A DNA stretch of 64,000 nt. Origin: Calothrix anomala FACHB-343 (GTDB taxonomy: Bacteria; Cyanobacteriota; Cyanobacteriia; Cyanobacteriales; Nostocaceae). This document shows positions 13,199 to 56,393 of the stretch, one piece after another. Each line of letters begins with the position of its first letter. Positions within the stretch are counted from its first letter, which is position 1. Both the position numbers and the translations under genes were made by a program. The stretch covers positions 168,386 to 232,385 of the forward strand of contig NZ_JACJQG010000003.1 of assembly GCF_014696435.1 (NCBI RefSeq), given 5' to 3'. The notes beneath the pieces are model-generated. The model had not been told where the DNA came from. It ran no database searches and saw only the letters and a program-made list of their open reading frames with translations.

Positions 13199-13262
13199 GT
13201 AGGGGCACGGCATCAGCCAGATTATGATATGTACCAGAAAATTGTCGGTGCCGTGCCCCTAC
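13199..13262. mobile_element. Inverted-repeat element, family C-like, upstream of CHAT gene
   Basis: 64 bp with perfect 14-bp inverted ends GTAGGGGCACGGCA / TGCCGTGCCCCTAC. It reads into an upstream open extension of the CHAT gene, but the real start is at 13334, so the element lies in the 5' region. Confidence 0.55.
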
Positions 13263-13333
13263 GAAAGGCTCTGTGGTTCAATTATCACCGAAACTGCTGT
13301 AATCCTCATCCAGCCATAACTTCATCCTTTAAT

Positions 13334-29746: not shown

Positions 29747-31000
29747 GTTTCAATCCCTCATAGGGATTATTTGAAATTTCAACTATTTGAATACACTTAC
29801 TGCACTGAAGTACAAACTAGTTTCAATCCCTCATAGGGATTATTTGAAATTTCAACATCGATTTAGAAGCTGCGAAACTTAATTTTAGGAGTTTCAATCC
29901 CTCATAGGGATTATTTGAAATTTCAACTAAACCATCATTGAGAGTGTTTAGAGGTTTCTCTGTTTCAATCCCTCATAGGGATTATTTGAAATTTCAACAA
30001 GAGGGCGATCGCCTATGGGGTGGATTAAAGCACGTTTCAATCCCTCATAGGGATTATTTGAAATTTCAACCTTATCTAGTCCTATATTGCTAGGCTTCTC
30101 AATGTGTTTCAATCCCTCATAGGGATTATTTGAAATTTCAACTCAAGCTTTTGATTAATTCCGTCTCGTACATCTTCTGTTTCAATCCCTCATAGGGATT
30201 ATTTGAAATTTCAACAGAGGGTGTAACAACTAAGTTTTTATAACTCGCGTTTCAATCCCTCATAGGGATTATTTGAAATTTCAACAAAATCTACATTATT
30301 ATCAACAACAATATTCTCGTTTCAATCCCTCATAGGGATTATTTGAAATTTCAACCCAATACTCGGTATATAAGACTAAAGATATAATTGTTTCAATCCC
30401 TCATAGGGATTATTTGAAATTTCAACGTGCTTAGTGCCCACACTCCGGTTGTAGTAGATAGTTTCAATCCCTCATAGGGATTATTTGAAATTTCAACGTT
30501 TAGCAGCAGTATCAATATTTCTTGCAAAATCGTTTCAATCCCTCATAGGGATTATTTGAAATTTCAACCGCAGGCTTGAGAACTGCTGAATATGCTTTTC
30601 AAGTTTCAATCCCTCATAGGGATTATTTGAAATTTCAACATTAGTGCGGCTATTACCAGTAGGAGAATCCTAAATGTTTCAATCCCTCATAGGGATTATT
30701 TGAAATTTCAACCTGAACGAATTAAAAATGATTGTCAAACCAGTGCAAGTTTCAATCCCTCATAGGGATTATTTGAAATTTCAACGCGCATCCCTAATTG
30801 TGTAGTTGTTAAGGTCTTTGTTTCAATCCCTCATAGGGATTATTTGAAATTTCAACATTAGCATTTCCTGAGATTCAGAAGCACAAGAAAAGTTTCAATC
30901 CCTCATAGGGATTATTTGAAATTTCAACCTTCTTGCGGGTTCGAGTTATTCGCCCCTGGAAATGTTTCAATCCCTCATAGGGATTATTTGAAATTTCAAC
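29747..31000 (-). CRISPR. CRISPR array, 18 identical 37-bp repeats, 17 spacers
   Basis: Repeats start at 29747, 29820, 29891, 29962, 30034, 30106, 30179, 30249, 30319, 30390, 30461, 30532, 30603, 30676, 30749, 30820, 30892 and 30964. On the plus strand each begins GTTTCAATCCC and ends GAAATTTCAAC; all appear identical, with a central CCCTCATAGGG partial palindrome. Spacers are 33-36 bp and all different. The minus strand ends in ATTGAAAC, the usual 5' handle of crRNAs, so transcription should run right to left with the leader at 31001 onward. The repeat type resembles those served by type III or I-D Cas6 enzymes in filamentous cyanobacteria. No cas gene lies in the window. Confidence 0.97.
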
Positions 31001-36966: not shown

Positions 36967-38400
36967 TTAAGTAACACATCGCCAAACTTTAACTGTCATA
37001 TCGCGGCTACCACTAACCAGGGTTTTACCATCGGGACTGAAAGCCAAACAGTTAACCCAGTCGGTATGATGAGCTAAAGTATAAAGCTGTTGTCCTGTTT
37101 TCACATGCCATATTCTCACAGTATGGTCGGCGCTACCGCTAGCTAAATAATCACCATCAGGACTAAAAGCCACAGCCCAAATATAACTGTGATGTCCGGC
37201 GAGGGTGTTAATTATTTTAGCTGTACTGGGATTCCATAGCTTGAGAGTTTGATCATAACTGCTACTGGCGATAATTTGCCCATCGGGACTAATGGCGACA
37301 CCTGTTACCCAACTGGAATGTCCCACCAATGTCAGCAACAGTTTTTTACTTTTGACTTTCCAGATTTTAACAGTGCGATCGCCACTTCCACTAACTAATA
37401 TATCCTGGTTAGGAGACATAGCCAGGGAATAAACTACATCAGCATGTCCTTTGAGAACTTGGAGTAATTGCCCCATAGCTATATGGGTAATTTTAATTGC
37501 ACTATCTGTACCGCCGCTATACAGAGTTTGACCATCAGCACTAATAGCAACAGCAACTACAGGGGTTGAATGTACCTTAATTGTGTTGATTAATTTCCCT
37601 GTAGATACTTGCCAAATATTAATAGTGCCATCATTACTACCACTAACTAAAGTTTGACTATCTGGGCTAAAAGCTAGGCATCTGACCCATTTACTATGAC
37701 CAGTTAAAGTATGTAATAATTGTCCTGTTTGCAAATGCCAAATTTTAACAGTTTTGTCACTAGTTCCACTAGCAATATATTGTCCATCTCGACTAATTGC
37801 TGCTGCTAAAACCCAACCTAAATGATTTAAAGTATTTACACATTTCCAAGGTGAACTTTGATTTTGTGAATCAGATGGCGGTGGCTTTGGTGATGATGTA
37901 GGTTGAGGCGGTTTAATTTTCTGTTGCAGTTCTAGTTTGGCAGCATTTTGTAAATCAGATTTAGCTCGATTTTCATAGCCTAATTTTGAGCAAGCTAAAC
38001 CACGATATTTATAAGCTTCAAAGTAATTAGGATTGAGGCGAATTGCTTGGGTAAAATCTTCAATTGCTTCTGGATATTTGCCTTGTTGAGCATTTTTCAT
38101 GCCGCGTTGATAGAAAGTTTCGGCATTAGATTGATAAGCATCAACCTTGATATCCTCTGTTGACGAAGATTTATTTGCAGATTGATTTATCGTCGCCTCT
38201 GCTGGATGAGACTTTAATTTATCGTAAGCTTGATTAATTTCTTTAATTTTTTCCTCTGCTACCAGCTTTTGCTGCGGTTCCAGAAAACTATCTGGATGCC
38301 AAATTTTGGCGAGACGGCGGTAAGCTTGCTTGATGTCTTGGGGTGATGCATCAGGTTTCAATTCCAGAATTTGGTAGGCACGATTGATATCAAAGCGCAT
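36967..38400 (-). CDS. DnaJ-TPR-WD40 fusion protein
   Basis: 477 residues. Residues 1-65 form a J domain (AYQILELKPDASPQDIKQAY and the invariant HPD in KIWHPDSF), which would stimulate an Hsp70. TPRs follow at about 93-160 (FYQRGMKNAQQGKYPEAIEDF), then a Pro/Ser linker. Seven WD40 repeats (about 185-477, e.g. GHSKWVRCLAFSPDSQTLVSGSNDGTINIW) form one beta-propeller. The order J-TPR-WD40 suggests an adaptor that delivers bound clients to DnaK. Start ATG 38400 lies 33 bases from a relict tocopherol-cyclase start on the opposite strand. Confidence 0.88.
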   Translation of the reverse strand: MRFDINRAYQILELKPDASPQDIKQAYRRLAKIWHPDSFLEPQQKLVAEEKIKEINQAYDKLKSHPAEATINQSANKSSSTEDIKVDAYQSNAETFYQRGMKNAQQGKYPEAIEDFTQAIRLNPNYFEAYKYRGLACSKLGYENRAKSDLQNAAKLELQQKIKPPQPTSSPKPPPSDSQNQSSPWKCVNTLNHLGWVLAAAISRDGQYIASGTSDKTVKIWHLQTGQLLHTLTGHSKWVRCLAFSPDSQTLVSGSNDGTINIWQVSTGKLINTIKVHSTPVVAVAISADGQTLYSGGTDSAIKITHIAMGQLLQVLKGHADVVYSLAMSPNQDILVSGSGDRTVKIWKVKSKKLLLTLVGHSSWVTGVAISPDGQIIASSSYDQTLKLWNPSTAKIINTLAGHHSYIWAVAFSPDGDYLASGSADHTVRIWHVKTGQQLYTLAHHTDWVNCLAFSPDGKTLVSGSRDMTVKVWRCVT

Positions 38401-40602: not shown

Positions 40603-40635
40603 CAATACTGCTATTATTATATATGGTTGCTAATT

Positions 40636-40709
40636 GGGGCTGTAGCTCAGTTGGACAGAGCGAGCGCCTCCTAAGCGCTAGGCCGTGCGTTCGAGACGCA
40701 CCAGTCCCG
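40636..40709 (+). tRNA. tRNA-Arg (anticodon CCT)
   Basis: A 74-nt cloverleaf: acceptor GGGGCTG pairs with CAGTCCC (one G-T), D stem GCTC/GAGC, anticodon stem AGCGC/GCGCT with loop CTCCTAA (anticodon CCT), T stem GTGCG/CGCAC with loop TTCGAGA, discriminator G. No CCA is encoded. It reads the rare AGG codon. An integrase gene starts 178 bp downstream, suggesting this tRNA served as an attachment site. Confidence 0.95.
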
Positions 40710-40719
40710 TAGATATCCT

Positions 40720-40768
40720 AAATCCCTGGAACCTATGAATGATAAAGGTTTTAGGGATTTATTTTTTG
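40720..40768 (+). terminator. Terminator after tRNA-Arg
   Basis: 15-bp stem AAATCCCTGGAACCT / AGGTTTTAGGGATTT with two G-T pairs (40720-40734, 40746-40760) followed by ATTTTTTG. Confidence 0.8.
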
Positions 40769-40887
40769 TCTTCATTGCTGAAATATAGTACATAAGCACT
40801 GTCTAGCATTTGTTAAACAACCCAAATTGACTATCAAATGACTATCACAAATATGGTATGTTAGACTGAGCGTCTAAGATATTCATT

Positions 40888-42081
40888 ATGCAATCAGGAA
40901 AACGCAATACTAAAGGTTCCGTCGTAGTTGAAAGTTTCCGCAAGCGCTTACGGTTGTCGTTACCCCGGCAATTATTTAATGGAAAGCAAAAATACTTAAC
41001 ACTTGGACTAGATGACACGCCAGGGAACCGCCAGATAGCAGAAGCCAAAGCCAAAGAGATAGAGAGAGACATTCAAGGTAATATTCTGGTTCCAGGGACA
41101 TTTGACTACACATTAAATAAATACCGTCCTGAATCCTTTCGATTAGTAGAAGCAGAGAAATCAGAATATCCTATTAGCCTTAATGAAATTTGGGAACAAT
41201 TTATAGAACACAAAAAGAAAATCTCATCACCCAGCACAATGAGATTTCAATATAGAGTTTTTAGCAACTACCTATCCAAATTACCTACTCATGATTTAGA
41301 GAAAGCAGTTGAAATTAGGGATTGGGTTTTAAGTAATATTCCTCCAGAATCGGCTAAAAGGTTTATTGTGCGTTTAAGTGCTTGTTGTGATTGGGCAATT
41401 GAGTCTCAAATTATTACTAATAATCCTTTTAAGGGCATGTCTAGTAAAATCACAATTCCTAAATCTCAAAAAAATGATGATGGCGAAATAAACCCATTTA
41501 GTGTATATGAAAGAGATTTAATAATCGAAGCATTTAGGAGTAATAAATTTTGTTCTAAATACTCTAGAGTTAAGCATTCTTATTATAGTGACTATGTAGA
41601 GTTCTTATTTCTCACTGGTTGTAGACCTTCAGAAGCGATCGCACTAGAGAGAAAAAACATTTCAAGCGACTTTAGATATGTAACATTTGATTGTGCAGTC
41701 GTGCTAACAGACAACGGATTAGCCAAAAAATCTGGATTAAAGACTCAAGAGAAAAGGAAATTTCCTGTTAATCAAAAATTGAAACCTATACTTGAAAGAG
41801 TATGTGAAGGTAAAAACAATGATGATATTTTGTTCCCCAGTCCTCAAGGAAAAACTTACATTGATACTGGCAACTTTAGAAACCGTGTATGGAAACCTGT
41901 ACTAAATGGATTAGGAATTGAATATAGAAAACCTTATCAAACTAGACACACTTTTATTACCTTAGCACTAGAAAATGGATTAGATGCTAAAGACGTTGCT
42001 CGGTTAGTTGGTAATTCTCCTGAGATAATTTATAAACACTATGCAGGTAATAAAAGAGATTTGTTTGTTCCAGAATTTTAA
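40888..42081 (+). CDS. Tyrosine recombinase / phage-type integrase
   Basis: 397 residues. An N-terminal arm-type DNA-binding part (SFRKRLRLSLPRQLFNGKQK) and a core-binding SAM-like helical domain (SLNEIWEQFIEHKKK) are followed by the catalytic domain from about 215. The catalytic Arg is in FLTGCRPSEAIAL, the Lys region follows, and the second box PYQTRHTFITLAL has the RH pair with Tyr in place of the usual first His. The nucleophile Tyr is in IYKHYAG (about residue 388). It lies just downstream of tRNA-Arg in the same direction, the classic place for an integrating element. No other element genes follow, so it may be a solo relic or a very small element. Lower-GC codon use than its neighbours hints at transfer. 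Confidence 0.9.
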   Translation: MQSGKRNTKGSVVVESFRKRLRLSLPRQLFNGKQKYLTLGLDDTPGNRQIAEAKAKEIERDIQGNILVPGTFDYTLNKYRPESFRLVEAEKSEYPISLNEIWEQFIEHKKKISSPSTMRFQYRVFSNYLSKLPTHDLEKAVEIRDWVLSNIPPESAKRFIVRLSACCDWAIESQIITNNPFKGMSSKITIPKSQKNDDGEINPFSVYERDLIIEAFRSNKFCSKYSRVKHSYYSDYVEFLFLTGCRPSEAIALERKNISSDFRYVTFDCAVVLTDNGLAKKSGLKTQEKRKFPVNQKLKPILERVCEGKNNDDILFPSPQGKTYIDTGNFRNRVWKPVLNGLGIEYRKPYQTRHTFITLALENGLDAKDVARLVGNSPEIIYKHYAGNKRDLFVPEF

Positions 42082-42206: not shown

Positions 42207-45200
42207 TTACGACTCATTTAGGCTCGCTATAGGTATTTGAATGATAAACTCAGTTCCTTTTCCTAGAGAGGAATTGCATTCGAGTAACCCAGAGTGTTTA
42301 TCTACTACAATTTGCCGAGCGATCGCCAATCCTAATCCTGTTCCTTTCCCGACAGCTTTCGTAGTAAATAAATGCTCGAATATCTTGTCTTTTACTTCTG
42401 CACTCATCCCCAGAGCATTATCAGCAATAGAAATCTTTACGTGCTTCCCTTCTAGTGAAGTTTTAATGGTAATTTGGTTGGGATTTGCTTTAATTTCTGC
42501 AAAACTCCGCCCATTATTTGCTTCTTCTAAAGCATCAATGGCATTGGCTAAAATATTCATAAATACCTGATTTAATTGCCCAGGGAAGCATTCAACCTGT
42601 GGTAAATTACCATAATCAGTAACCACCTCAATAGCTGGACGTTGTTCGTTAGCTTTAAGACGATGTTTCAGAATTAAAATAGTGCTATTGATACCTTCAT
42701 GGATATTAAAAGGTACTTTGTAATCTTTATCTGCTCGTGAAAAAATGCGAAGACTGGTACTGATATTTTTCAGGCGATCGCAAGCCATAACCATTGCATC
42801 CATCATCTTTGGTAAGTCTTCTTGGATGTAATCTAGGTCAATTTCTGTGGCGTGATCAATAATTTCTTCAGTTGGATTAGGTAGAGTTGCTTGATACAAT
42901 TTTAGGTGTTCGCTAATATCAGCAATTGTAGGTTTAGCTTGTGTAAGACTGGCAGAAATAAAACCAAGAGGATTATTCATTTCATGTGCCACCCCTGCTA
43001 CTAAATTGCCCAATGCTGACATTTTTTCACTCTGGACGATTTGTAATTGGACTTGTTGTAAATCTTCTAACGCTTGTTGGACTTTTTGATAAAGTCGAGC
43101 ATTTTCTAAAGAGATAGCTGCTTGGGAGGAAAGTAGATTAATTACTTGCAACCGTTCTTGGGTAAATACCCCGTTTGTGAGTTGATTTTCTAGATAGAGA
43201 ATACCTACTAAATTTCCTTGGTTAATAATTGGTGTGCATAATATACTTTTTGGTTGGTGTGTGAGTATATATTCGCTAATTAGTCCAGGAATATCTGTTT
43301 GACAGTTATCTATAACTATTGTTTGCTGAGTATTAGTAACGTAATTAATAATTTTTTGGGGTACATCTTGACAAGTATCTAGTAACTTTTGTTCGAGCAA
43401 TGTTTGGATTTGCATTTGAGAATTAATAGAAGTGATTGCTCGGATTTTCCAAGTATCTTCTTGGGGGAGAATTAAGACAGATTTTTTTGCACCAGAGTTT
43501 TCTAAGATTATTTTGGTGAGGCTAGTGAGGAGTTGATCTAATTCGATACTGCTAGAAATAGTTTGAGCCGCTTTGAGTACACTGGTAAAGTCTAGAATTT
43601 CCGAAATATTGCTAGTACTAGCCGTGGAACTATGAGCAGATGAAGATGTTTTACGAAACACAATGGTGGAGATTGTTTCCCAAGGATTGGGGTGAATTCG
43701 TCTTTGTTGCAGGATGGGTTTGAGTAGTTGAGGATAGCGTTTTTCTAAGTCGTTGGTTTTGGCTTTAGCACCCCAACGGGAATAGCAGTAGTATGCTTGT
43801 TGCATATATCCTGCGGCGACTGTTTCTTTTTCCCAGTCAAGATAAAATTTAGCAGCAAGTTCGTTGGCTAAGGCTTCTTCTTGACTGTAACCGTTTGTTT
43901 TGGCAAGAGAAATAGCGCGATCGTACCAATCTCCCGCTTCATATTTTCTGTCTAAAACTCGATATTTTTCTGCATTGACTAGGTTGAATTTATGTAAATA
44001 ATTCATCGGGGCATGATTAGCCCAAACTGCCATTTTTTCCTGATTATTCTGGACTTTTTCTATAATTGCTTGTTGCTCAGAAAGGGGAACTCTAGAATAC
44101 AAAGCTAATCGTACTAAAGAATCGTAAAAATAAAACAAAGGCACAACAACCAGCCCAGTAACTCCTCCTAGAGACTGTTCTGTCATTTCAGAATTTTTTA
44201 ATGCCTGGTCATAATCATCGAATAAATAACTGATGAATAGTTTATTTACAAACAAGTGATTAATTGTATACAAGTCATTGGCTTTTTGATGGGTAATTAA
44301 CATAGCTTCTTCATCATATGCTGTGCCAATTAGCTTATATATATTTTCCGACTTACCCTGGAGATTAAACACAGTTTGGTAATAAATTGAACTCCAATAG
44401 AAAGCGACTTGCTGCTTGATTTTTTTTAAAGAATCAACATAAATACTAAAGTCTTTCTCTAGAATTTCTAGTTCCTTCCCTAGCCAAAAAGAATGAACTG
44501 GATAAATATAAGCACAATAACCAGCATATTCGAGATCGCCTGTTTCTAGCCCTGTAGAATAACCTTCGATCGCAGGTGTTAATGTGTCCTTAATATGCTG
44601 TTGCCAATGGGCTATGTGTGCATTAACAACAGTTAATATCTTCGCTTTTAGTTCTGAAGAATTAAATTTGGATAATATGCCCAAAGCTAATTTACCAAAT
44701 TCACAGCCAGCGTTAATATCACTAAAGGCTCCACAAAGCAGCAATCCATACAAACTATAACCATAGGCAGAAACAGGTGTATTGCCGTATTTAATCGATA
44801 ACTGAACCATTGCAAAGGTGATTAAGGGAACCATTACCGGATCGCTTTGAAAAGCCGCAGGAAGGACTCGCATTAAGATTTTCATCGCTGCGATGTTTTC
44901 GGGGTTTGTCATTATTGGTAAATGAACTAATTCCGCGATAGATTTACCCTGTAAATTGTCAACAACTTGCTGTAAACCTTGTTGAATATCTAAGGGTGTT
45001 GGTTGTTCGGGAAAATTAATGCCTAATTGTTGCAGAATTGAGCGGGCAATTTGGATTCCTTCTATTTGTTTGCTTTGCATAATGCAAGCAGTAATCTGAA
45101 TTTCGTAGATAGAAACCTTATCTAGTAATGTTTTGGCATTTTGCAGAATGATTGCTGTAAAATGTTGCATCTGCTCAAAATTACCACTTAAATAAGCAGA

Positions 45201-47663
45201 TTCAGCAACTAATACATGTAATTCTAATGTTAATTGATATTGCTTTTTCCAGCTATCTTCATCAAGTAATTCTAACCCAATCAAAGAATATTCCACAGCC
45301 GCAGTATAAGCAGTCGCAGCTTTCGCTTTTGTTCCAGCAATCAGATTTAATTGCGCTAATTGATTTCGTTCTTGGATATCGTCAATTAATACCCTACCAA
45401 TATTTAACTGGTTGACAATATCAAAAATCTGTTCTCCTTGTTTGGCTGGGGGAATACTTTGTAAAAGCAATCGCCCAATTTGTAAATGTGTCTTTTGTCT
45501 GTTTGCTTCCAGAATTAGAGAATAAGCTGCTTGTTGGATGCGGTCATGCAAGAATTTATACTTAGCTGTGTGGTGATACGCCAAAGGCATTAAGCTGTGC
45601 TTATTGCTAATTGTCAGTTGAGTTTGTTCTTCAGCATCTTGATAAAACTTATAAACCGCACTTTGGGGCAAAATAAAATCTGACTGCAAGGCTTTCCATA
45701 AAGATGCAGCTGTTTCTACGACCGATAATTGGCACACAATTGCTAATGTATTTAAATCAAAAGAGTTGCCAATACAAGCAGCAAGCTTTAATACTTGTTG
45801 AGTCAATTCTGGTAATTTTTGTAATTGAAATACCATAAACTCAACAACATCTGAAGTGAGTGTTTGCTGATTGATTTGAGCAATATCACATTCCCAGCAT
45901 CCCTCTTGCCAATTAAAAATAATTAGTTCATCTTCATGTAATGACTTGAGAAACTGCGTAACAAAAAAAGGATTACCTTGAGTTTTGCGATAAATCAATT
46001 GCGAAAGAGGGAATGCCAAATTTTCTGCACACTTTAATGTTTCAACTACGAGTTGATTCAAGTGTAATTGACTCAGAGGTTGGAGGGTAAGTGTATTTAC
46101 AATCGCCCCCGCGTTGCTAATCCCATCTAAGGTCATAATCAACGGATGAGCTGGGGAGACTTCATTATCTCGATATGCACCAATTAAGAGTAAATATCCT
46201 TGATTTGTTTCTGATATTAATAATTGAATTAACTTCAATGAAGCCAAATCAGCCCATTGTAAATCATCCAAAAATATTACTAAAGGATGCTCTTTGCTGG
46301 TAAATAGTTGCAGAAAATTCTGGAATAATAAATTAAATCTATTTTGAGCCGCAGTCCCAGATAATTCTATTGCAGGTGGTTGTTGACCAATAATTCTTGC
46401 TAATTCGGGAATAACATCAATAATTACCTGTCCATCGTTCCCTAATGCCTGAATAATTTTACTTTTCCATTGTTGGATTTGCGCATCAGTTTCAGCGAGT
46501 AATTGCCCCATCAAATCCCGAAATGCTTGCACAAATGCTGAAAAAGGAATATTTCGATTAAACTGGTCAAATTTGCCTTTAATAAAATATCCCCGTTGTT
46601 TAACAATGGGTTTATGAACTTCGTTAACTACCACAGTTTTACCAATACCAGAAAACCCAGCAATTAACATGAGTTCGCTATCACCTTGAGAAACCCTGGC
46701 AAATGCTGCTAATAGTTGCTCAACTTCCTTTTCTCTACCATATAATTTTTCAGGGATGAGAAAGCGATCGCAAATATCCCGCTTCCCAATTTCAAAATCA
46801 TTAATTTCCCCGATTTCTGTGATTTGTTCTAAACATTTTTCTAAATCATGCTTTAATCCTAAGGCACTTTGATAACGGTCTTCCGCATTTTTCGCCATCA
46901 GTTTCATCACAATATCTGACAGTACTGGGGGAATCTCTTCCCTGTTCCCTAATACCGCAGGCATTTTAGCAATATGACTATGTATCAACTCCATCAGATC
47001 TGCTGATTGAAATGGTAATTGACCAGTTAATAATTCGTAAAAAGTTACGCCTAAAGAATAAAAATCAGTGCGATAATCAATTACGCGATTCATTCTCCCC
47101 GTTTGTTCGGGTGATATATAGGATAATGTTCCTTCCAAAACTTGAGGATTTTTCAGGGATTCGGTTTCCCTTGGGAGTAAGGAAGCAATACTAAAATCTA
47201 TTAATTTAACTTGCTTGGTTTCGGGATTAATTAAAATATTGGCGGGTTTAATATCTTTATGAATAATTTTCTGATGATAGAGAAAATCTAAGGTATCGCA
47301 CAGAGATACAGCAATTGGCAAGAATTCCTGTAGAAGCGTTATCTGTAAATTATTATGAGTAAAATAATCCTTGAGAGAAATTCCCCCAAAGTCTTCCATC
47401 ACCAATATATAACCATTTTGGTAAGTTTCTAAGCTATAGGTTTGGATGATTCCTTGGAAGTCAAGATTTTTAGCAATAGTATATTGATTACGAAATTGTA
47501 CCAGTTCGCTAAAGCTAGGATAAGGATTTTTCAGCAGTTTGATGACTACTCTTAAGGAATCTTGTTCTCGGATTGCTCGATATACCAAAGTCTTGGAACC
47601 ATCATAAATGATTTCTTTGACTTGATATCCGGGAATAGTAATTTGAGTGCTAACCATACTCAT
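42207..47663 (-). CDS. Ser/Thr kinase - AAA ATPase - GAF - histidine kinase (HstK type)
   Basis: 1818 residues, a layout frequent in filamentous cyanobacteria. Residues ~10-270: Ser/Thr protein kinase with the catalytic loop HKDIKPANILI and Mg site DFSIAS (DFG variant), then SPEQTGRM. About 310-600: AAA ATPase with P-loop GFSGIGKTVVV (about 337) and Walker B VIFLDDLQWAD. A long helical middle region follows. About 1360-1530: GAF sensor domain. About 1550-1810: histidine kinase with the phospho-acceptor His in VAGVAHEMNNPLGF (about 1558) and ATP lid KGTGLGLAIAR. No membrane span, so cytoplasmic. It is divergent from a secreted SnoaL-like gene. The input signal is unknown. Confidence 0.92.
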   Translation of the reverse strand: MSMVSTQITIPGYQVKEIIYDGSKTLVYRAIREQDSLRVVIKLLKNPYPSFSELVQFRNQYTIAKNLDFQGIIQTYSLETYQNGYILVMEDFGGISLKDYFTHNNLQITLLQEFLPIAVSLCDTLDFLYHQKIIHKDIKPANILINPETKQVKLIDFSIASLLPRETESLKNPQVLEGTLSYISPEQTGRMNRVIDYRTDFYSLGVTFYELLTGQLPFQSADLMELIHSHIAKMPAVLGNREEIPPVLSDIVMKLMAKNAEDRYQSALGLKHDLEKCLEQITEIGEINDFEIGKRDICDRFLIPEKLYGREKEVEQLLAAFARVSQGDSELMLIAGFSGIGKTVVVNEVHKPIVKQRGYFIKGKFDQFNRNIPFSAFVQAFRDLMGQLLAETDAQIQQWKSKIIQALGNDGQVIIDVIPELARIIGQQPPAIELSGTAAQNRFNLLFQNFLQLFTSKEHPLVIFLDDLQWADLASLKLIQLLISETNQGYLLLIGAYRDNEVSPAHPLIMTLDGISNAGAIVNTLTLQPLSQLHLNQLVVETLKCAENLAFPLSQLIYRKTQGNPFFVTQFLKSLHEDELIIFNWQEGCWECDIAQINQQTLTSDVVEFMVFQLQKLPELTQQVLKLAACIGNSFDLNTLAIVCQLSVVETAASLWKALQSDFILPQSAVYKFYQDAEEQTQLTISNKHSLMPLAYHHTAKYKFLHDRIQQAAYSLILEANRQKTHLQIGRLLLQSIPPAKQGEQIFDIVNQLNIGRVLIDDIQERNQLAQLNLIAGTKAKAATAYTAAVEYSLIGLELLDEDSWKKQYQLTLELHVLVAESAYLSGNFEQMQHFTAIILQNAKTLLDKVSIYEIQITACIMQSKQIEGIQIARSILQQLGINFPEQPTPLDIQQGLQQVVDNLQGKSIAELVHLPIMTNPENIAAMKILMRVLPAAFQSDPVMVPLITFAMVQLSIKYGNTPVSAYGYSLYGLLLCGAFSDINAGCEFGKLALGILSKFNSSELKAKILTVVNAHIAHWQQHIKDTLTPAIEGYSTGLETGDLEYAGYCAYIYPVHSFWLGKELEILEKDFSIYVDSLKKIKQQVAFYWSSIYYQTVFNLQGKSENIYKLIGTAYDEEAMLITHQKANDLYTINHLFVNKLFISYLFDDYDQALKNSEMTEQSLGGVTGLVVVPLFYFYDSLVRLALYSRVPLSEQQAIIEKVQNNQEKMAVWANHAPMNYLHKFNLVNAEKYRVLDRKYEAGDWYDRAISLAKTNGYSQEEALANELAAKFYLDWEKETVAAGYMQQAYYCYSRWGAKAKTNDLEKRYPQLLKPILQQRRIHPNPWETISTIVFRKTSSSAHSSTASTSNISEILDFTSVLKAAQTISSSIELDQLLTSLTKIILENSGAKKSVLILPQEDTWKIRAITSINSQMQIQTLLEQKLLDTCQDVPQKIINYVTNTQQTIVIDNCQTDIPGLISEYILTHQPKSILCTPIINQGNLVGILYLENQLTNGVFTQERLQVINLLSSQAAISLENARLYQKVQQALEDLQQVQLQIVQSEKMSALGNLVAGVAHEMNNPLGFISASLTQAKPTIADISEHLKLYQATLPNPTEEIIDHATEIDLDYIQEDLPKMMDAMVMACDRLKNISTSLRIFSRADKDYKVPFNIHEGINSTILILKHRLKANEQRPAIEVVTDYGNLPQVECFPGQLNQVFMNILANAIDALEEANNGRSFAEIKANPNQITIKTSLEGKHVKISIADNALGMSAEVKDKIFEHLFTTKAVGKGTGLGLAIARQIVVDKHSGLLECNSSLGKGTEFIIQIPIASLNES

Positions 47664-48815: not shown

Positions 48816-51800
48816 TCAGTTTAATAGACGTTGCTTCTCTTCCTCAGTGAAAGGATTTTTACCAGCACGGAGAGCATTAACCCAACTTTGCATTTGTGCT
48901 TTGTCTTGCTTATTATCAGTCGATTTGATAAATGCCTCAAAGTCTTCAATTGCTCCTTGAGTATTTCCAGTCAGCGTCCTAGCAATACCCCGAATTGGAC
49001 GAATGTTTATATTTTCAGGCTCAAGTGCCACCGCTTTATCACAGGCAAACATGACATCTGCGGCATATCCCCTCAAACTGCCATTCCCACAGAGTTTATT
49101 CCAAGAATCAGCAGATATTTTCAAGTTGGGGTCGAATTTTTGTGCATCTGCGTAGGCAGCAAGAGCTTCCTTGACTTTACCATCTTTAACGAGCTTTTCT
49201 CCCTGAGTAACCAAAGCAAGGGCAGCTAACTGTCTGACTTCTGTTGTACTAGGGATAGCTACGTTAGAATCCAATTTTCGGGCTTGATTAAACTTAGCTT
49301 CCGCAGTTTTGATATCACCATCTGCCTTTGCTATGGCTTGACCTTGATTAACTAGAAATTGAGCTTTTTCGCTGTTGCTCCATTTGGCAAAGTCGAGACA
49401 GGTTTGCGCTGCGGCTTTTGCTTCGTCAGTCTTAGCTTCTAGAAGTGTAGGATGCTCGTGTAAATTATTGCACCCCACTTTTAGCCAATCTTGCCAATTA
49501 CCACCAGCCCACAACCGTAGCGTGTTGTCATCACTGCCACTGACAATATACTGACCATCGCGACTGAACGCCAGCGCCCTGACACGTTCTGTATGACCGT
49601 TGAGGGTGTGGAGCAACTTGCCTTTTGTATCCCACAACCGTAGCGTGTTGTCATCACTGCCACTGACAATGTACTGACCATCGGGACTAAACGCTAGCAC
49701 CGTGACATAACTTGTATGACCCTTGAGGGTGTGGAGCAAGTTGCCTTTTGTATCCCACAACCGTAGCGTCTTGTCATAACTGCTACTTACAGTATACTGA
49801 CCATCGGGACTGAACGCCAGTGCTGTGACAGGTGCTGTATGACCGTTGAGGGTGTGGAGCAACTTGCCTTTTGTATCCCACATCCGTAGCGTATTGTCTA
49901 CACTGCCACTGACAATATACTGACCATCGGGACTGAACGCCAGCGCATTGACACCTCCTGTATGACCCTTGAGGGTGTGGAGCAACTTGCCTTTTGTATC
50001 CCACATCCGTAGCGTATTGTCTACACTGCCACTGACAATGTACTGACCATCGGGACTGAACGCCAGCGCATTGACACCTCCTGTATGACCCTTGAGGGTG
50101 TGGAGCAACTTGCCTTTTGTATCCCACATCCGTAGCGTCTTGTCATCAATGCCACTAACAATATACTGACCATCGGGACTGAACGCCAGCCCCCTGACAA
50201 GACCCGTATAACCATTGAGGGTGTGGAGCAACTTGCCGTTTGTATCCCACATCCGTAGCGTCTTGTCATTACTGCCACTGACAATGTACTGACCATTGAG
50301 ACTGAACGCCAGCGCATTGACACCTCCTGTATGACCCTTGAGGGCGTGAAGCAACTTGCCTTTTGTATCCCACATCCGTAGCGTGTTGTCATAACTGCCA
50401 CTGACAATATACTGACCATTGGGACTAAACGCCAGCGCCGTGACTTCACGTGTATGACCGTTGAGGGTGTGGAGCAAGTTGCCGTTTGTATCCCACATCC
50501 GTAGCGTATTGTCATTACTGCCACTGACAATATACTGACCATCGGGACTGAACGCCAACGCCCTGGCAAGACCTGTATAACCGTTGAGGGTGTGGAGCAA
50601 CTTGCCTTTTGTATCCCACATCCGTAGCGTATAGTCATTACTGCCACTGACAATGTACTGACCATCGGGACTGAACGCCAGCGCCCAGACAACAGATGTA
50701 TGACCGTTGAGGGTGTGGAGCAACTTGCCGTTTGTATCCCACATCCGTAGCGTATTGTCACTACTGCCACTGACAATGTACTGACCATCGGGACTGAACG
50801 CCAGCGCCGTGACAGGTGCTGTATGACCGTTGAGGGTGTGGAGCAAGTTGCCGTTTGTATCCCACATCCGTAGCGTCTTGTCATTACTGCCACTGACAAT
50901 GTACTGACCATTGGGACTGAACGCCAGCGCCGTGACAGGTGCTGTATGACCGTTGAGGGTGTGGAGCAACTTGCCTTTTGTATCCCACATCCGTAGCGTC
51001 TTGTCACTACTGCCACTGACAATATACTGACCATCGGGACTGAACGCCAGATCCGTGACAGTATCGGTATGACCGTTGAGGGTGTGGAGCAACTTGCCTT
51101 TTGTATCCCACATCCGTAGCGTCTTGTCACTACTGCCACTGACAATGTACTGACCATCGGGACTGAACGCCAGATCCGTGACAGTATCGGTATGACCGTT
51201 GAGGGTGTGGAGCAACTTGCCTTTTGTATCCCACATCCGTAGCGTCTTGTCATTACTGTCATCACTGCCACTGACAATGTACTGACCATCGGGACTGAAC
51301 GCCAGATCCGTGACACGTCCTGTATGACCGGAAAAAATATTGCGCTCACGCACAGCTTCTATTGCTTCTAATAAACTAGATTGAACTTCACTTAAAACTT
51401 CCCCCAGTTGTGACTGACTTTCACCAGTTGCCCCAATTGCTGAAATTAATGGCTCTACATTTGTTGATAATGACAGTAAATATTTGATATTTGTAGCTTT
51501 TTCTCTCAGATTAGCGATGCTTGCTTGTTTGCGAGACTCAAATCCAAAAATTGTTGAAGCCACTGCGCCTATAGCTACCACGCCTACAAAAGCAGCAACT
51601 ACGCCAAACCTAACCCATTTACTTGTATTACGTTGCTGAATACTTTTCTGCACAAATTCCGATGCTAAATGCGACAGCAAACCGAGATCCCCATACTCTT
51701 GTAAGTAATTCTCTGCTTCTGCCAATTTTGACCCGGTAAACAGATAATCTTTGGACTTGTTTTTACTTTCCCACTCCTCTGATGCTGCCTCAATCTTGCG

Positions 51801-53960
51801 CTCAACGCGGATGGCGGCTCGGTTTTCACTCACCCAAGCACGCAGTCTTGGCCAATGGCGAATCAATGCTTCATGAGTTACATCCACCACTGTCACGGTC
51901 TTTTGACTCTCTCCCCGTGCTTGCAGTTCCGATGTCACCACTAATCTGGCATCTGTCAACTTCATTAGCACTTGTTCCACCACTTCAGCCGATTGCTGGG
52001 GGTTGACTAAATCTGTCTTAAACACCTGTCTGCGGGTGTCTTCTGTTCCTTCTCCCAACTGAGTTAACTCAATGAATATCCGTTTAGCAGTCAGTTGTTC
52101 TGTGGAGTCGAGAGCATCATAAACTTCATCAGCCCGTTTTTGTAGCGTGCCTTTAACTCCACCCAGTCTGCTATATTCTGCCAGAGTTAAGCGATTCACC
52201 TCTCGCTTCCGCCATAATTCCGTTAGGGTATATTGCAACAAAGGTAAACTACCAGGGCCTTCCACATCGGCTAACATTTGTTCTACTAGTTCCCGTTGCA
52301 CTTCTAACCCGACTTGATAGGCAGGTTGGGTAATGGCTTCTGTCAACTCCTTTTTATTCATGGGGGTGACAGTAATCAGATTCTCTTGAATTTTCTGTGC
52401 TAATCCTGCATATTCTTGTTCGGCACATTTCCCAAAAAAATCTGCCCGCATCGTCATTACCACTGTCAACAGAGAATTATTTAATGCCCCTAACAAACAC
52501 TCAAAAAACTCCTGTCGTTCGTTTTCATCTTTACAGAGAGTAAAAACTTCTTCAAATTGGTCAATGACGAGAATGAGACGATGCCCGGATTTCTCACCAA
52601 ATTTATAAAATCTAGGCCCAGAGGCTGTAGGGGCGGGTTCACAAATATGCTTCGATGATTCACGAATATCTCGTGAACCTGCCCCTACCGTTTTGTGAGA
52701 AATGCCGGGATGGGAAACTGGGGTTTGCAAGGATGGAGTGTTTGCATCAGGCTCTAGCTGATGTAATGTGGCTTGGACTAATTGAGTTAATCCCCTTGCA
52801 CCCTGATTGAGTAACTCTTCTGCTGTTTCAAGTTCAGATTTGGGTGTATCTGTCTGTGTTTGGGCATCCTGAACCTGGGGAGGAATTATATTATCTAAAA
52901 ATACTCTAGCTAAACTTTTGAGGGGATGCTCTCCGGGGCGAAAAATCTTGATTACCCATTGATCGCTTCCTCCCAATCTTTTGCCTAACTTCAGTTGATG
53001 CAGTAAACCTGCCTTAACTACACTAGATTTACCACTTCCCGAAGCGCCGACAACTGCCAAAAAATTCCCTTGCCTAATATTCTCCAACAGCGAATCAGTT
53101 AAAGCGGTGCGTCCGTAGAAATATTTCGGGTCTGATTCGTTAAATTCAAAAGCTGCTAAACCTTTGTAAGGGCAGAATTCTGCCATTAAAACAGCACGGT
53201 CAATTTTTTCTTTTTGTCCCGTGAGGATAATTTCTGTGCCAGTGTTATGAAAAATCGGACGCTGACGGGCAGTTTTTAGCTGCTGCTTGATTAAGTCAAC
53301 CAGGGAGTAGTTTGTCACCCAGCCTTCAGCATGATTTTCCGGTTTAAGTGCTTCTACTAATGCGCCACTCAAAATCCCATGATTGCCACTCAACTCTTCA
53401 TAGGCGACTTCAAATTCACGAGAAGCGGTAATTAAACATCTATCCTTTGTCTCAAAACTCCCAGGATCGGCATCATCGAAACTCAATAACTCACCGCTAT
53501 AACAACAATCTAACCACACAATTTGCTGCCGCACTGGCGAAGATTGTAAAAGTTTGCGTAGCCAGTCTAGGGAAAGTCCCCACTGTCCAATCACAGGACA
53601 AGTATCGCTGGCAGCTAAAAAGCCTTCTGTGACTCCACCGATATCTTTGCGTAAACCATGCCCCGCAAAAAACAGCAAGGCTGTATCAGGAATGCTGCGC
53701 CCAGGGGGATTGAAAAGTTGAACAATAGCTGTTTCTAATTCTTGGACTGTTAGCTGCTGCTGAGGATCGACAAAGTAAGATCCATCCTGATTATAAGCTA
53801 CTGGTAAACGCTCGACATGGAATTTACCATAAGTTTCCAGGATTTGGGCTATGGCTTCGGCATCAGTTGCTGGGGCTTTGAGATGCGGCGGGCGATCGCT
53901 AGGTTTTTGTATCAAGGTAGGATAGCGATTAATGCCGATCACCAGTGCTTCTCTTTCCAT
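48816..53960 (-). CDS. Caspase-like / nSTAND ATPase / WD40 / TPR receptor-like protein
   Basis: 1714 residues from ATG 53960 (a TTG at 53969 is an alternative). Order: caspase-like peptidase (about 1-235) with catalytic His in LFFAGHGLRKD (about 101) and Cys in IVWLDCCYSGE (about 153); STAND-type NTPase starting CPYKGLAAFE with P-loop VVGASGSGKSSVVKAG (about 305), Walker B LILVIDQFEEVF and a winged-helix end; one membrane-like helix (about 785-808); 15 WD40 repeats of 41 residues (about 873-1487); helical TPR-like tail (about 1490-1714). This is the caspase-NLR-like layout linked to regulated cell death and immunity in multicellular bacteria. A 62-bp mobile repeat sits in the ATPase region (52627-52688). 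It is divergent from 54032. Confidence 0.92.
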   Translation of the reverse strand: MEREALVIGINRYPTLIQKPSDRPPHLKAPATDAEAIAQILETYGKFHVERLPVAYNQDGSYFVDPQQQLTVQELETAIVQLFNPPGRSIPDTALLFFAGHGLRKDIGGVTEGFLAASDTCPVIGQWGLSLDWLRKLLQSSPVRQQIVWLDCCYSGELLSFDDADPGSFETKDRCLITASREFEVAYEELSGNHGILSGALVEALKPENHAEGWVTNYSLVDLIKQQLKTARQRPIFHNTGTEIILTGQKEKIDRAVLMAEFCPYKGLAAFEFNESDPKYFYGRTALTDSLLENIRQGNFLAVVGASGSGKSSVVKAGLLHQLKLGKRLGGSDQWVIKIFRPGEHPLKSLARVFLDNIIPPQVQDAQTQTDTPKSELETAEELLNQGARGLTQLVQATLHQLEPDANTPSLQTPVSHPGISHKTVGAGSRDIRESSKHICEPAPTASGPRFYKFGEKSGHRLILVIDQFEEVFTLCKDENERQEFFECLLGALNNSLLTVVMTMRADFFGKCAEQEYAGLAQKIQENLITVTPMNKKELTEAITQPAYQVGLEVQRELVEQMLADVEGPGSLPLLQYTLTELWRKREVNRLTLAEYSRLGGVKGTLQKRADEVYDALDSTEQLTAKRIFIELTQLGEGTEDTRRQVFKTDLVNPQQSAEVVEQVLMKLTDARLVVTSELQARGESQKTVTVVDVTHEALIRHWPRLRAWVSENRAAIRVERKIEAASEEWESKNKSKDYLFTGSKLAEAENYLQEYGDLGLLSHLASEFVQKSIQQRNTSKWVRFGVVAAFVGVVAIGAVASTIFGFESRKQASIANLREKATNIKYLLSLSTNVEPLISAIGATGESQSQLGEVLSEVQSSLLEAIEAVRERNIFSGHTGRVTDLAFSPDGQYIVSGSDDSNDKTLRMWDTKGKLLHTLNGHTDTVTDLAFSPDGQYIVSGSSDKTLRMWDTKGKLLHTLNGHTDTVTDLAFSPDGQYIVSGSSDKTLRMWDTKGKLLHTLNGHTAPVTALAFSPNGQYIVSGSNDKTLRMWDTNGNLLHTLNGHTAPVTALAFSPDGQYIVSGSSDNTLRMWDTNGKLLHTLNGHTSVVWALAFSPDGQYIVSGSNDYTLRMWDTKGKLLHTLNGYTGLARALAFSPDGQYIVSGSNDNTLRMWDTNGNLLHTLNGHTREVTALAFSPNGQYIVSGSYDNTLRMWDTKGKLLHALKGHTGGVNALAFSLNGQYIVSGSNDKTLRMWDTNGKLLHTLNGYTGLVRGLAFSPDGQYIVSGIDDKTLRMWDTKGKLLHTLKGHTGGVNALAFSPDGQYIVSGSVDNTLRMWDTKGKLLHTLKGHTGGVNALAFSPDGQYIVSGSVDNTLRMWDTKGKLLHTLNGHTAPVTALAFSPDGQYTVSSSYDKTLRLWDTKGNLLHTLKGHTSYVTVLAFSPDGQYIVSGSDDNTLRLWDTKGKLLHTLNGHTERVRALAFSRDGQYIVSGSDDNTLRLWAGGNWQDWLKVGCNNLHEHPTLLEAKTDEAKAAAQTCLDFAKWSNSEKAQFLVNQGQAIAKADGDIKTAEAKFNQARKLDSNVAIPSTTEVRQLAALALVTQGEKLVKDGKVKEALAAYADAQKFDPNLKISADSWNKLCGNGSLRGYAADVMFACDKAVALEPENINIRPIRGIARTLTGNTQGAIEDFEAFIKSTDNKQDKAQMQSWVNALRAGKNPFTEEEKQRLLN
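49490..51345 (-). repeat. 15 tandem 123-bp WD40 units with high identity
   Basis: Within the gene above, 15 units of 41 codons follow one another. The scaffold (FSPDGQYIVSGS, TLRMWDTKGKLLHTL) hardly varies. Changes concentrate after GHT (DTVTD, APVTA, SVVWA, REVTA, GGVNA, SYVTV, ERVRA) and at one codon after SGS (D, S, N, Y, V). The first unit has three extra codons (DDSNDKT). DNA identity is high enough for unequal crossing-over. Confidence 0.9.
52627..52688. mobile_element. 62-bp family C element inside the caspase-STAND gene
   Basis: Inverted ends GTAGGGGCGGGTTCAC / GTGAACCTGCCCCTAC (one mismatch). Same length and ends as 25424-25485. It lies in frame in the NTPase domain, before Walker B, and encodes the unusual linker around GAGSRDIRESSKHICEPA. 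Confidence 0.75.
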
Positions 53961-54031
53961 AGCTGCCAATGAATTTAAGTATCAGGTAAACTAGTTGATT
54001 ATGTAAACAAAAAATATTAGTTATTTTCCTC

Positions 54032-54511
54032 ATGGAAACCAGCAATCTTAACAATACTTTATTAGCTTTGTTACTAGCCCTGCAAGATTCAGAAATTACT
54101 CTCAGTGATACAGAACAATCCGACTTATCCCAAGTAGCTGAACAGCTTTCTGCCAACCCAAAAGCCTGGGAAATACTCATCGAACCCCGTTTGTTGGTGA
54201 TGATCCAAGCTAATGAAACTTTAAATCAAAGGTTTCAAGCTGCTAAATCTTTATTAGATAATTTAGGCGATAAAATCCCGTTAAATTTACTACCTAGCGA
54301 GGCTGAACTAGAACAAGCAGCCCCAAAGCAGAAACCTCAAGTGGTAACTCGTGGTATTCCACAAGTTAGTTCCTCAGACTTGAGAAGCAATGAAATTACC
54401 AATATGGCTATCAGGGTTATGGCAACTCCCAACCCTTCGGAAACTGCCAAAAAATTAAGTAGCTTTGATAAATTCCAACAATTTTTAACCCAAAATTTTG
54501 CCCAAAAATAA
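54032..54511 (+). CDS. Unrecognised helical protein, 159 residues
   Basis: No family recognised. The N-terminal ~85 residues are predicted helical (NTLLALLLALQDSEITLSD, QVAEQLSANPKAWEILIEP, QRFQAAKSLLDNLGDKI). A Pro/Gln-rich linker follows, then a C-terminal helix (SSFDKFQQFLTQNFAQK). There is no signal or membrane segment, so cytoplasmic. It starts 71 bp from the divergent caspase-STAND gene, presumably sharing a promoter region, and is followed on the same strand by the membrane-anchored coiled-coil gene. Position suggests an adaptor or effector partner of the receptor-like protein; that is inference only. Confidence 0.6.
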   Translation: METSNLNNTLLALLLALQDSEITLSDTEQSDLSQVAEQLSANPKAWEILIEPRLLVMIQANETLNQRFQAAKSLLDNLGDKIPLNLLPSEAELEQAAPKQKPQVVTRGIPQVSSSDLRSNEITNMAIRVMATPNPSETAKKLSSFDKFQQFLTQNFAQK

Positions 54512-54932: not shown

Positions 54933-56393
54933 ATGACTGACCTCATCTATCCCACTATTGACCTGTTTCTCTATGACTTGAAATATAGTTTAGGAGATAA
55001 TCCAGAAGAAATTAAGCAAAATCAACAATCTTATTACAATAAAATTCCTGAATACATTCGCCCATTATTGTTAGAAAATGGGCAAGATTTACAAGGTGAA
55101 TATGTTCATCTTCTCCAAGATGTATACGCACAGACAAAACATCATAATGAACAATATGAAGGCTATTTCTATCCGGTGCTACTCGGTGATAGTTATGGCT
55201 TACTTGTAGAGTGTGCATTCAAAAATAAAACTCATGCTCAACCTGCTAAAATATTTGTCGATATCAAAGCTGAAATTGAGCGCATATTAAAGAGTCAAAC
55301 AGTGACTATTGGGCAAACCTGGATGCTTTCTGGCTGGCTACCTCCTGCTCAAACTAAGAGTTCTGAAGAGATTGCTCAAGCTTGTTATCAAGCATTAATG
55401 CCCGGTTTAGATTGGGAAGGAGATTTACAAGGTCAAGGACACTTTCTCGGAGCAAATATTTTTGAACTAACTCAAAATAATCAGCATTTTATTATCATAA
55501 TATATCCAGATGAAGCTACTTTAGACCAATCTGGCAAATTTTATGCTGACTGGATACGTTTATTTTATTATCGCCACAAAATAGTTTGGGCTTATAGCCA
55601 AAGTCGTTTCTTAAAAAATTCTCTACAAAATTATTTTACGAAGATTAAAGTCGGAAGTGATGCTATTGAACAAGCTAGAAAGAAGAAAGGCGAGTTAAAT
55701 ACATTGCAGAAAACATTAGTCGATGTGCAAAATACACTTAATGAATATACCAGAGAATTAACTATACTTGATTTTCAGGGTGGGACGATTGATATTAATT
55801 TGAGCAATTATGAAAAACGGCTAGAGAGAATTCAACAAAAATCTCAGAAAATTACAGCAAATAAAGAAACAGAAGTTGAGTTTTTCACAGAGTTTAGTAA
55901 ATTAGTTAAAGATAAATATCGGCTACAGATAACTAAAGACTCAGAAAACCTAGAGCGAGGTTTAAAATTACTCTCAGATACTATTAATGCAGTTAGCAGT
56001 CGAGTTGAATTAGAAAAAGCTGAACGCGATCGCAATTTTCAAGAATTCCTTAGCCTTCTGGCTGTAGGCTGGACTTTTGGCTCTTTTGTTGCGGCTTTGC
56101 CAGGATTGGGTGAAAAGAACGATAACCCTGTTAGATCGTTCCTAATTAATTCTTTCAATCTCAAACCCAGTATAGAAGACGTAAAGACAACAACAGAAGT
56201 AAAGACAGTTACACAGCCATTAAGTACAAAAGCAGGAACAACAACCAAAGAGGTAAAAACAGTTACACAGCAGGCAAACCAAGAACCTTGGTGGCTAGTC
56301 CCAGCTACCAAGGGAATATACACCCTCAGCGGCTTTGTCATCGCTATATTAGTAGTTTTGCTTTGGCGGCGTTTATGGAGACGATACAGTTAG
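54933..56393 (+). CDS. Coiled-coil protein with C-terminal membrane anchor
   Basis: 486 residues, no family recognised with certainty. The N-terminal half (1-230) is globular (ECAFKNKTHAQPAKIFVDI, WMLSGWLPPAQ, DWIRLFYYRHKIVWAYSQSR). Residues ~245-360 are coiled coil (ELNTLQKTLVDVQNTLNEYT). Two hydrophobic stretches follow: FLSLLAVGWTFGSFVAALPG (about 370-390) and a definite transmembrane helix TLSGFVIAILVVLLW near the C-terminus. Between them is a repeated TTxEVKTVTQ motif (two copies). The pattern suits a membrane-acting effector or anchor. Its TAG stop is formed by the terminal repeat of a family D element. Confidence 0.65.
   Translation: MTDLIYPTIDLFLYDLKYSLGDNPEEIKQNQQSYYNKIPEYIRPLLLENGQDLQGEYVHLLQDVYAQTKHHNEQYEGYFYPVLLGDSYGLLVECAFKNKTHAQPAKIFVDIKAEIERILKSQTVTIGQTWMLSGWLPPAQTKSSEEIAQACYQALMPGLDWEGDLQGQGHFLGANIFELTQNNQHFIIIIYPDEATLDQSGKFYADWIRLFYYRHKIVWAYSQSRFLKNSLQNYFTKIKVGSDAIEQARKKKGELNTLQKTLVDVQNTLNEYTRELTILDFQGGTIDINLSNYEKRLERIQQKSQKITANKETEVEFFTEFSKLVKDKYRLQITKDSENLERGLKLLSDTINAVSSRVELEKAERDRNFQEFLSLLAVGWTFGSFVAALPGLGEKNDNPVRSFLINSFNLKPSIEDVKTTTEVKTVTQPLSTKAGTTTKEVKTVTQQANQEPWWLVPATKGIYTLSGFVIAILVVLLWRRLWRRYS

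Follow-up and report, generated by a model that had tools for sequence, protein, structure and literature searches.

The described case of self/non-self recognition in which positive selection focuses on particular sites of highly alike WD40 repeats is that of fungal receptors. In the WD40 units of Podospora, four codons (7, 9, 25 and 27) are under positive selection (Paoletti et al., 2007, PMC1805685; Chevanne et al., 2010, PMC2873952); in HET-D, HET-E and HET-R these flank codons 8 and 26, which are under purifying selection, and a homology model places them atop the propeller (PMC1805685). Among bacteria, tripartite Avs proteins with an effector-STAND-sensor order (PMC10907252), highly repetitive Nostoc WD40-STAND proteins with a proposed immune role (PMC9218822) and cyanobacterial caspase-WD40 proteins (PMC2853523) are already known. 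The present analysis concerns a stretch of 64,000 nucleotides (hereafter the window) from the 9.24-Mb draft genome (144 contigs) of the cyanobacterium Calothrix anomala FACHB-343 (GCF_014696435.1, contig NZ_JACJQG010000003.1, positions 168,386 to 232,385), and within it a caspase-STAND-WD40 receptor gene and its divergent neighbours p159 and p486. The comparisons support the view that the bacterial arrays diversify at the same unit positions as the fungal NWD/HET receptors. On balance, we favour the reading that the gene encodes a bacterial STAND (NLR-like) recognition receptor with a diversifying WD40 sensor, forming part of a conserved three-gene module.

Repeat variation in the receptor

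The receptor is encoded in an open reading frame spanning 48816-53969 (reverse strand), in which an ATG at 53960 gives a product of 1714 residues with the following features:

48816..53960, reverse strand: receptor gene, 1714 residues, comprising caspase, nSTAND1, hydrophobic helix, 15 WD40 units and a C-terminal TPR-like region
53244..53951, reverse strand: caspase domain (Peptidase_C14, residues 4-239), PF00656 E 3.7e-16 over residues 1-285
51750..53171, reverse strand: nSTAND1 nucleoside triphosphatase (NTPase) domain (about residues 264-737 from the ATG), PF20703 E 6.4e-123
52580..52720, reverse strand: region of the nSTAND1 domain with an in-frame insert, absent from seven aligned orthologues and matching a dispersed repeat
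51546..51602, reverse strand: hydrophobic, transmembrane-like helix (residues 787-805, 19 residues) between nSTAND1 and WD40, Kyte-Doolittle mean 2.45
49476..51329, reverse strand: WD40 array of 15 units (residues 878-1495), most variable at unit codons 5, 23, 4, 7, 8 and 25
48819..49475, reverse strand: C-terminal region of 219 residues with four cysteines and similarity to TPR (TPR_2 E 1.2e-6)

The initial annotation had called this a caspase-STAND protein with WD40 repeats, an intact caspase His/Cys pair and an intact P-loop. Both points were borne out, the first by PF00656 (60 bits against a cut-off of 21.4), PF20703 and the 15 units, and the second by the motifs GHG (from residue 100), DCCYSG (from residue 151) and GASGSGKS (from residue 305). 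Among 47 related caspase open reading frames of at least 400 residues, GHG is present in 45 and the Cys pattern in 41. Furthermore, an NTPase domain with a P-loop, set between an N-terminal effector and a C-terminal repeat sensor (caspase, nSTAND1, WD40, TPR-like), is the organisation of STAND/NLR-like proteins. The insert at 52580-52720 matches a dispersed repeat; with the insert itself counted, the genome holds at least 51 such matches, from 40 scored out of 123 candidates. The orthologue of Nostoc linckia carries a different in-frame insert about 60 residues upstream of the window insert site. In N. carneum (L052:4199-11097, reverse strand), the orthologue is broken within the nSTAND1 region by about 1.5 kb containing a 454-residue frame, and its array partly reads N; split or decayed frames are found at the loci L149 and L145, the former being left out of the unit comparison.

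The WD40 units are spaced by 41 residues, except for the first (44 residues), and Tandem Repeats Finder reports a period of 123 with 14.7 copies and 90% matches at 49508-51330. Pairwise identity among the 15 units averages 83% for DNA and 74% for protein, with minima of 60% and 46%; the earlier description of the repeats as near-identical thus stands for their frame and fails for some unit pairs. The many consecutive, highly similar blades agree with a recently amplified (WRAP-like) propeller, and the best solved relative of the array is PDB 2YMU (E 4.3e-195), which we take to be Npun_R6612. Shuffling the unit order 5000 times rarely gave neighbours as alike as those observed in the window (1 shuffle), in genome G006 (5) and in N. 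linckia (81), while the tendency is weak in genome G002 (243 of 5000) and unclear in the arrays L106 (619) and L105 (2696); tandem duplication is, accordingly, supported in some arrays only. Fifteen of the 17 unit-DNA matches in the draft genome fall within this array and the other two are weak and short, and no paralogue donor for unit exchange, as in Podospora, was seen among them.

For the analysis of variation, codons of the 41-codon unit were numbered from the G of GHT (codon 1), and nonsynonymous (pN) and synonymous (pS) diversity were obtained as per-codon counting estimates rather than from a likelihood model of the nonsynonymous to synonymous rate ratio (dN/dS). Changes had been claimed to cluster at a few codons after GHT and one after SGS, and this proved accurate: across the 13 interior window units the highest pN falls at codons 5, 23, 4, 7, 8 and 25. 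The pooled pN of codons 4, 5, 7, 8 and 23 is 0.53, against a pS of 0.088 elsewhere in the unit and of 0.30 at those codons, and none of 20,000 random five-codon sets reached it; the proposed excess of amino-acid change at the variable codons was thereby found, within the limits of counting estimates. As this codon set was chosen from the same data, the outside set taken from the fungal work provides the stronger test. Window codons 5 and 7 flank V6 and codons 23 and 25 flank D24, with the same spacing as the fungal set at a constant offset of two, the match being one of spacing and flanking residues rather than of aligned fungal sequences. These four codons rank 1, 4, 2 and 6 of 41 for amino-acid change in the window, and random sets were as high in 5 and 0 of 50,000 draws (two runs on the same 13 units).

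The same set was followed through six orthologous arrays (window, L103, L053, L054, L105 and L106), with the last and irregularly spaced units omitted from the codon counts (13/15, 7/9, 15/16, 15/16, 8/13 and 13/15 units used). In all six, codons 5, 7, 23 and 25 are among the eight codons of 41 with the most amino-acid change, in agreement with the likeness to the fungal NWD/HET pattern that had been suggested. The ratio of their pN to the pS of the rest of the unit (35 codons, excluding 4 and 8 as well) is 5.9, 6.2, 2.5, 3.0, 6.6 and 3.3; every bootstrap interval lies above 1, these intervals being rough because units share history and recombine. The observed pN was reached by no more than 31 of 50,000 random four-codon sets in any array, and pN/pS across the rest of the unit ranges from 0.14 to 0.76. 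Family-wide, at least two of the four codons are among the six most variable columns in all 14 scored arrays, drawn from 32 caspase open reading frames with WD40 hits (six had fewer than five units and 12 had too few full-length units); L103, L105 and L106 belong to both sets. The predicted surface location of the variable residues is taken from the fungal homology model (PMC1805685).

Array turnover and the linker helix

Between close relatives, nearly the whole WD40 array has been replaced, as judged by unit comparison within otherwise alike genes. The N-terminal parts of the window receptor and its N. linckia orthologue are 97.0% identical in DNA, while the arrays hold 15 and 9 units, of which two are identical, and the signatures found in both arrays belong to the first and last three units. 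In the G006/G002 pair (N-terminal part 95.6% identical in DNA; 16 units each) no unit is identical and no four-residue signature is held in common. For the rest of the locus, dN/dS in the window/N. linckia and G006/G002 pairs, respectively, is 0.08 and 0 for the caspase, 0.16 and 0.22 for STAND, 0.20 and 0.13 for p486, and 0.19 and 0.15 for p159; by these ratios, purifying selection acts on the caspase, the STAND domain and the two neighbours. These comparisons set one species against another, with one genome per species. Since several assemblies are drafts and Illumina assemblies fail to recover such arrays (PMC12222747), unit sequences are safer than unit counts. Within this scope, array sequence and length are not fixed among relatives, and the proposal of a repeat sensor that diversifies by repeat change gains support from both the unit turnover and the amino-acid change at a few sites.

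The helix preceding the array, which the initial annotation does not mention, recurs as well. Among 35 related receptors long enough to be judged, hydropathy calls a hydrophobic stretch in 28 within the interval from residue 600 to the beginning of the WD40 array; it lies in the STAND-WD40 linker in 25 of the 35 and inside the STAND domain in the other three (L147, L152 and L154), and seven have no helix call. Of these 28 stretches, 24 have the higher net charge on their N side, two have equal charge on both sides and two have the lower charge there. If the helix spans the membrane, this charge distribution and the positive-inside rule suggest that the caspase and STAND domains are cytoplasmic and the WD40 array outside. 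The helix between STAND and WD40 makes a plain cytosolic NLR analogy doubtful, and an outside sensor would make recognition of contact, envelope or phage more likely than intracellular sensing.

The p159/p486 neighbours

Divergently from the receptor, two further genes are found that are absent from the initial annotation of this locus:

53961..54031: the 71 bp that separate the start codons of the divergent receptor and p159 genes
54032..54511, forward strand: p159, a helical protein of 159 residues and candidate adaptor, with no Pfam or NCBIfam family over cut-off
54933..56393, forward strand: p486, a protein of 486 residues and candidate membrane partner of CorA-like shape, with two C-terminal hydrophobic helices (residues 372-390 and 459-477)

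A scan of named genomes gave 101 relatives of p486, of which the best 80 were kept (records nearest the window genome were possibly left out), and their loci were typed with hidden Markov models built in this analysis. Among these 80 loci, p159 lies directly upstream of p486 in 53. A divergent caspase gene is present within 4 kb in 47 of these 53, compared with 3 of the 27 loci without p159 (8 of which have less than 1.5 kb upstream of p486), giving a Fisher P of 7.7e-12 for loci that are not independent. WD40 hits occur in 25 of the 36 caspase-linked loci with at least 5 kb upstream. In a midpoint-rooted tree of 70 p486 sequences (p159 set of 52; window included in both), 47 of 49 p159-linked rows fall on one side of a single branch (53 rows, support 96/90), which spans cyanobacterial families and Thiotrichaceae, and the p159 label changes 9 times, against 18.3 for shuffled labels. 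Judged by p486, the closest of the named relatives is Nostoc linckia FACHB-104, and a p159 match at E 1e-5 is found in 39 of 148 genomes of the order. On the evidence of gene order and phylogeny, the receptor, p159 and p486 form a conserved divergent module with long-term linkage.

The p159 domain is also found in fusions. It heads a CHAT protein in its own genome (L102:8661-11108, reverse strand; CHAT E 6.1e-9), at whose start a short caspase-like fragment lies on the other strand. A similar p159-CHAT fusion in genome G159 (CHAT 20.8 bits, cut-off 24) is divergent from an EAD8 gene (E 2e-24), and genome G026 has a cut-short p159 fusion with no family assigned. The window p159 has no Pfam family at E 0.1, and no effector-associated domain (EAD) model is among the best 25 of 31 Pfam families for the 52 members. 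AlphaFold2 predicts helices (mean predicted local distance difference test score, pLDDT, 79), and no fold match was found for this model. For p486, AlphaFold2 predicts an alpha/beta domain at the N-terminus, followed by long helices and a C-terminal pair of hydrophobic helices (mean pLDDT 84); transmembrane calls in the 70 members number two in 48, one in 20, three in one and none in one. Among the 50 Foldseek matches listed, 35 are CorA, Mrs2 or CmaX chains (best E 2.3e-3, query template modelling score 0.16). Such chains recur among the p486 VIA rows, in which syntaxin is at the top and helical bundles often score equally high. The GMN motif marks CorA; a GMN-like motif (G[MVIL]N) is present in the C-terminal 40% of none of the 70 members, and no CorA model is among the best 25 of 58 Pfam families. 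"CorA-like" therefore denotes the modelled shape of p486 and not family membership.

In genomes G002 and G008 (L083:1715-12025 and L084), the caspase genes lying divergently from the p159/p486 pair showed no WD40, and that of G002 has nSTAND1 and a trypsin-like domain; the sensor part may thus be exchangeable. With respect to caspase-linked membrane systems already described, an EACC1-type caspase was considered for the receptor and rejected (NF047832, 80.3 bits against a cut-off of 140); p159 and p486 gave no family above cut-off, in searches that included no EACC1 model by name.

Other features of the window include a TPR-CHAT gene (13229-15784, forward strand), a second repeat-rich gene of protease type, with its own alike repeats (13604-14315, period 120, 80% matches), and a CRISPR (clustered regularly interspaced short palindromic repeats)-like array at 29891-31000 with the repeat GTTTCAATCCCTCATAGGGATTATTTGAAATTTCAAC and differing spacers. 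A further repeat protein, a WD40 protein of 477 residues, is encoded at 36967-38400 (reverse strand), and a tRNA-Arg (CCT) followed by a tyrosine recombinase lies at 40635-42081, for which no second exact attachment repeat was found within the window. Near the receptor, 42207-47663 (reverse strand) encodes 1818 residues with Ser/Thr kinase, AAA_16, GAF and histidine-kinase-type ATPase domains.

Mechanism, alternatives and known systems

From ligand binding onward, we infer the steps of the mechanism, including the ligand, the topology and cell death. The WD40 array would bind a variable ligand on the propeller face bearing the variable residues, and binding would lead to nucleotide-dependent clustering of STAND domains and thereby to activation of the caspase, which could cleave a partner (p159, p486 or itself). 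In this scheme, p159 would be the adaptor, and p486 would act at the membrane and bring about cell damage or death. The repeats would change through duplication, loss and exchange inside the array, selection retaining new residues at a few contact codons. A more specific version, which we put forward tentatively and consider doubtful as a whole, holds that the locus is an undescribed three-gene membrane recognition/death system, with a single-pass receptor that carries its hypervariable WD40 array outside and passes the binding signal on through STAND and caspase inside, a p159 adaptor and a CorA-like executor. This would be a bacterial counterpart of fungal allorecognition, found in cyanobacteria (mostly filamentous) and some Thiotrichaceae, its four recognition positions having arisen by convergence or descent.

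Certain observations weigh against a recognition role. Within the variable codons themselves (4, 5, 7, 8 and 23), pN/pS across the six arrays is 1.78, 1.25, 1.07, 1.32, 3.87 and 2.38, and hence near 1 in two of them (1.07 and 1.25). Moreover, WD40 propellers of recent amplification are common, many of them in decay (PMC9218822), and orthologues of the receptor are sometimes broken, as in the interruption of about 1.5 kb in N. carneum and the split or decayed frames of L149 and L145. Recent amplification and gene conversion could keep the units alike, with the variable codons being unconstrained loop residues. Unconstrained codons should not, however, surpass synonymous diversity, whereas pN at codons 5, 7, 23 and 25 amounts to 2.5-6.6 times the pS of the rest of the unit in the six arrays; the remaining protein is under purifying selection and the same positions vary in fungal receptors, so that we regard this neutral explanation as unlikely. 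Slightly less credible still is a signalling scaffold or developmental regulator (for example, in the control of stress or cell differentiation), even though cyanobacteria often have WD40 and caspase proteins, in combination with a wide range of domain types (PMC2853523, PMC8283722), as a regulator with fixed partners is not expected to swap its binding surface between loci 96-97% identical elsewhere.

A recognition role could also be exercised inside the cell, by a phage sensor of the cytosol, comparable to Avs or bacterial NACHT proteins, in which the helix is buried and the WD40 array binds a phage protein. The effector-STAND-sensor order is that of Avs (PMC10907252) and 7 of 35 relatives have no helix call; against this stand the linker helix of 25 of 35 relatives and the more positive N side in 24 of 28, and the array turnover suggests a variable ligand, whereas Avs sensors bind conserved phage proteins (PMC10907252). 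Such a sensor is a possibility to be kept in view, though on these grounds an improbable one. As for the origin of the variation, STAND-type conflict genes of multicellular bacteria can be targets of diversity-generating retroelements (PMC10907252). That such an element wrote the variable codons is nonetheless very hard to credit: no template copy appeared among the unit-DNA matches (15 of 17 in the array itself, two weak and short), the five reverse transcriptase matches in the draft genome include none on contig C68, and the variation is spread across units rather than confined to one C-terminal stretch.

The receptor with a diversifying sensor in a three-gene module remains the reading that we prefer. 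A literature search covering articles without their supplements recovered no recognised report of site-specific selection in bacterial WD40 receptors or of the p159/p486 module. As far as the searched literature goes, four findings are new: bacterial arrays vary at counterparts of the fungal codons, nearly all WD40 units have turned over between close loci, a linker helix recurs among the receptors, and p159 and p486 belong to a module. Diversification of the same four positions in bacterial caspase-STAND receptors, together with array turnover, would bring the fungal design to bacteria, where it is testable in Nostoc relatives. To our knowledge, the physiological substrates of cyanobacterial caspases are largely unknown, and p159 and p486 represent concrete candidate partners for these enzymes.

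Among known systems, the CorA/Mrs2/ZntB channels share with the p486 model an N-terminal alpha/beta domain, long helices and two C-terminal transmembrane helices, although the template modelling scores of p486 are weak. The p159 domain resembles effector-associated domains (Kaur et al., PMC7159879, PMC8195603) in occurring both alone and fused to an effector. The EACC1-caspase two-gene membrane conflict system (Kaur et al., 2020, PMC7159879) likewise pairs a caspase with a membrane protein in multicellular bacteria; the window genes are, however, divergent rather than a 5'-3' pair, and p486 has an N-terminal domain and two transmembrane helices, compared with the single helix of EACC1. In cyanobacteria, the combination of a caspase with 7-15 WD40 repeats is already described for the cbMC-beta metacaspases/orthocaspases, and the available portions of their descriptions do not mention site-focused repeat variation or p159/p486 neighbours (PMC2853523, PMC8283722). 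The WRAP-type WD40-STAND protein Npun_R6612 of Nostoc shares the fusion of repetitive WD40 blades to STAND (PMC9218822), but the window array is diversified at the recognition codons, and in place of the TIR-STAND operon partner of Npun_R6612 the window has p159/p486. The NWD/HNWD proteins of Podospora anserina (HET-D, HET-E and HET-R) also have highly alike WD40 repeats behind a STAND NTPase; their units vary at the same four codon positions, and repeat number and order change (PMC1805685, PMC2873952, PMC12222747). Unlike in the fungal NWD/HET family, closely similar paralogue repeats for exchange were not seen in the window genome. The window protein further differs in being bacterial, in having an N-terminal caspase and no HET domain, nSTAND1 in place of NACHT, a helix before the repeats and two partner genes.
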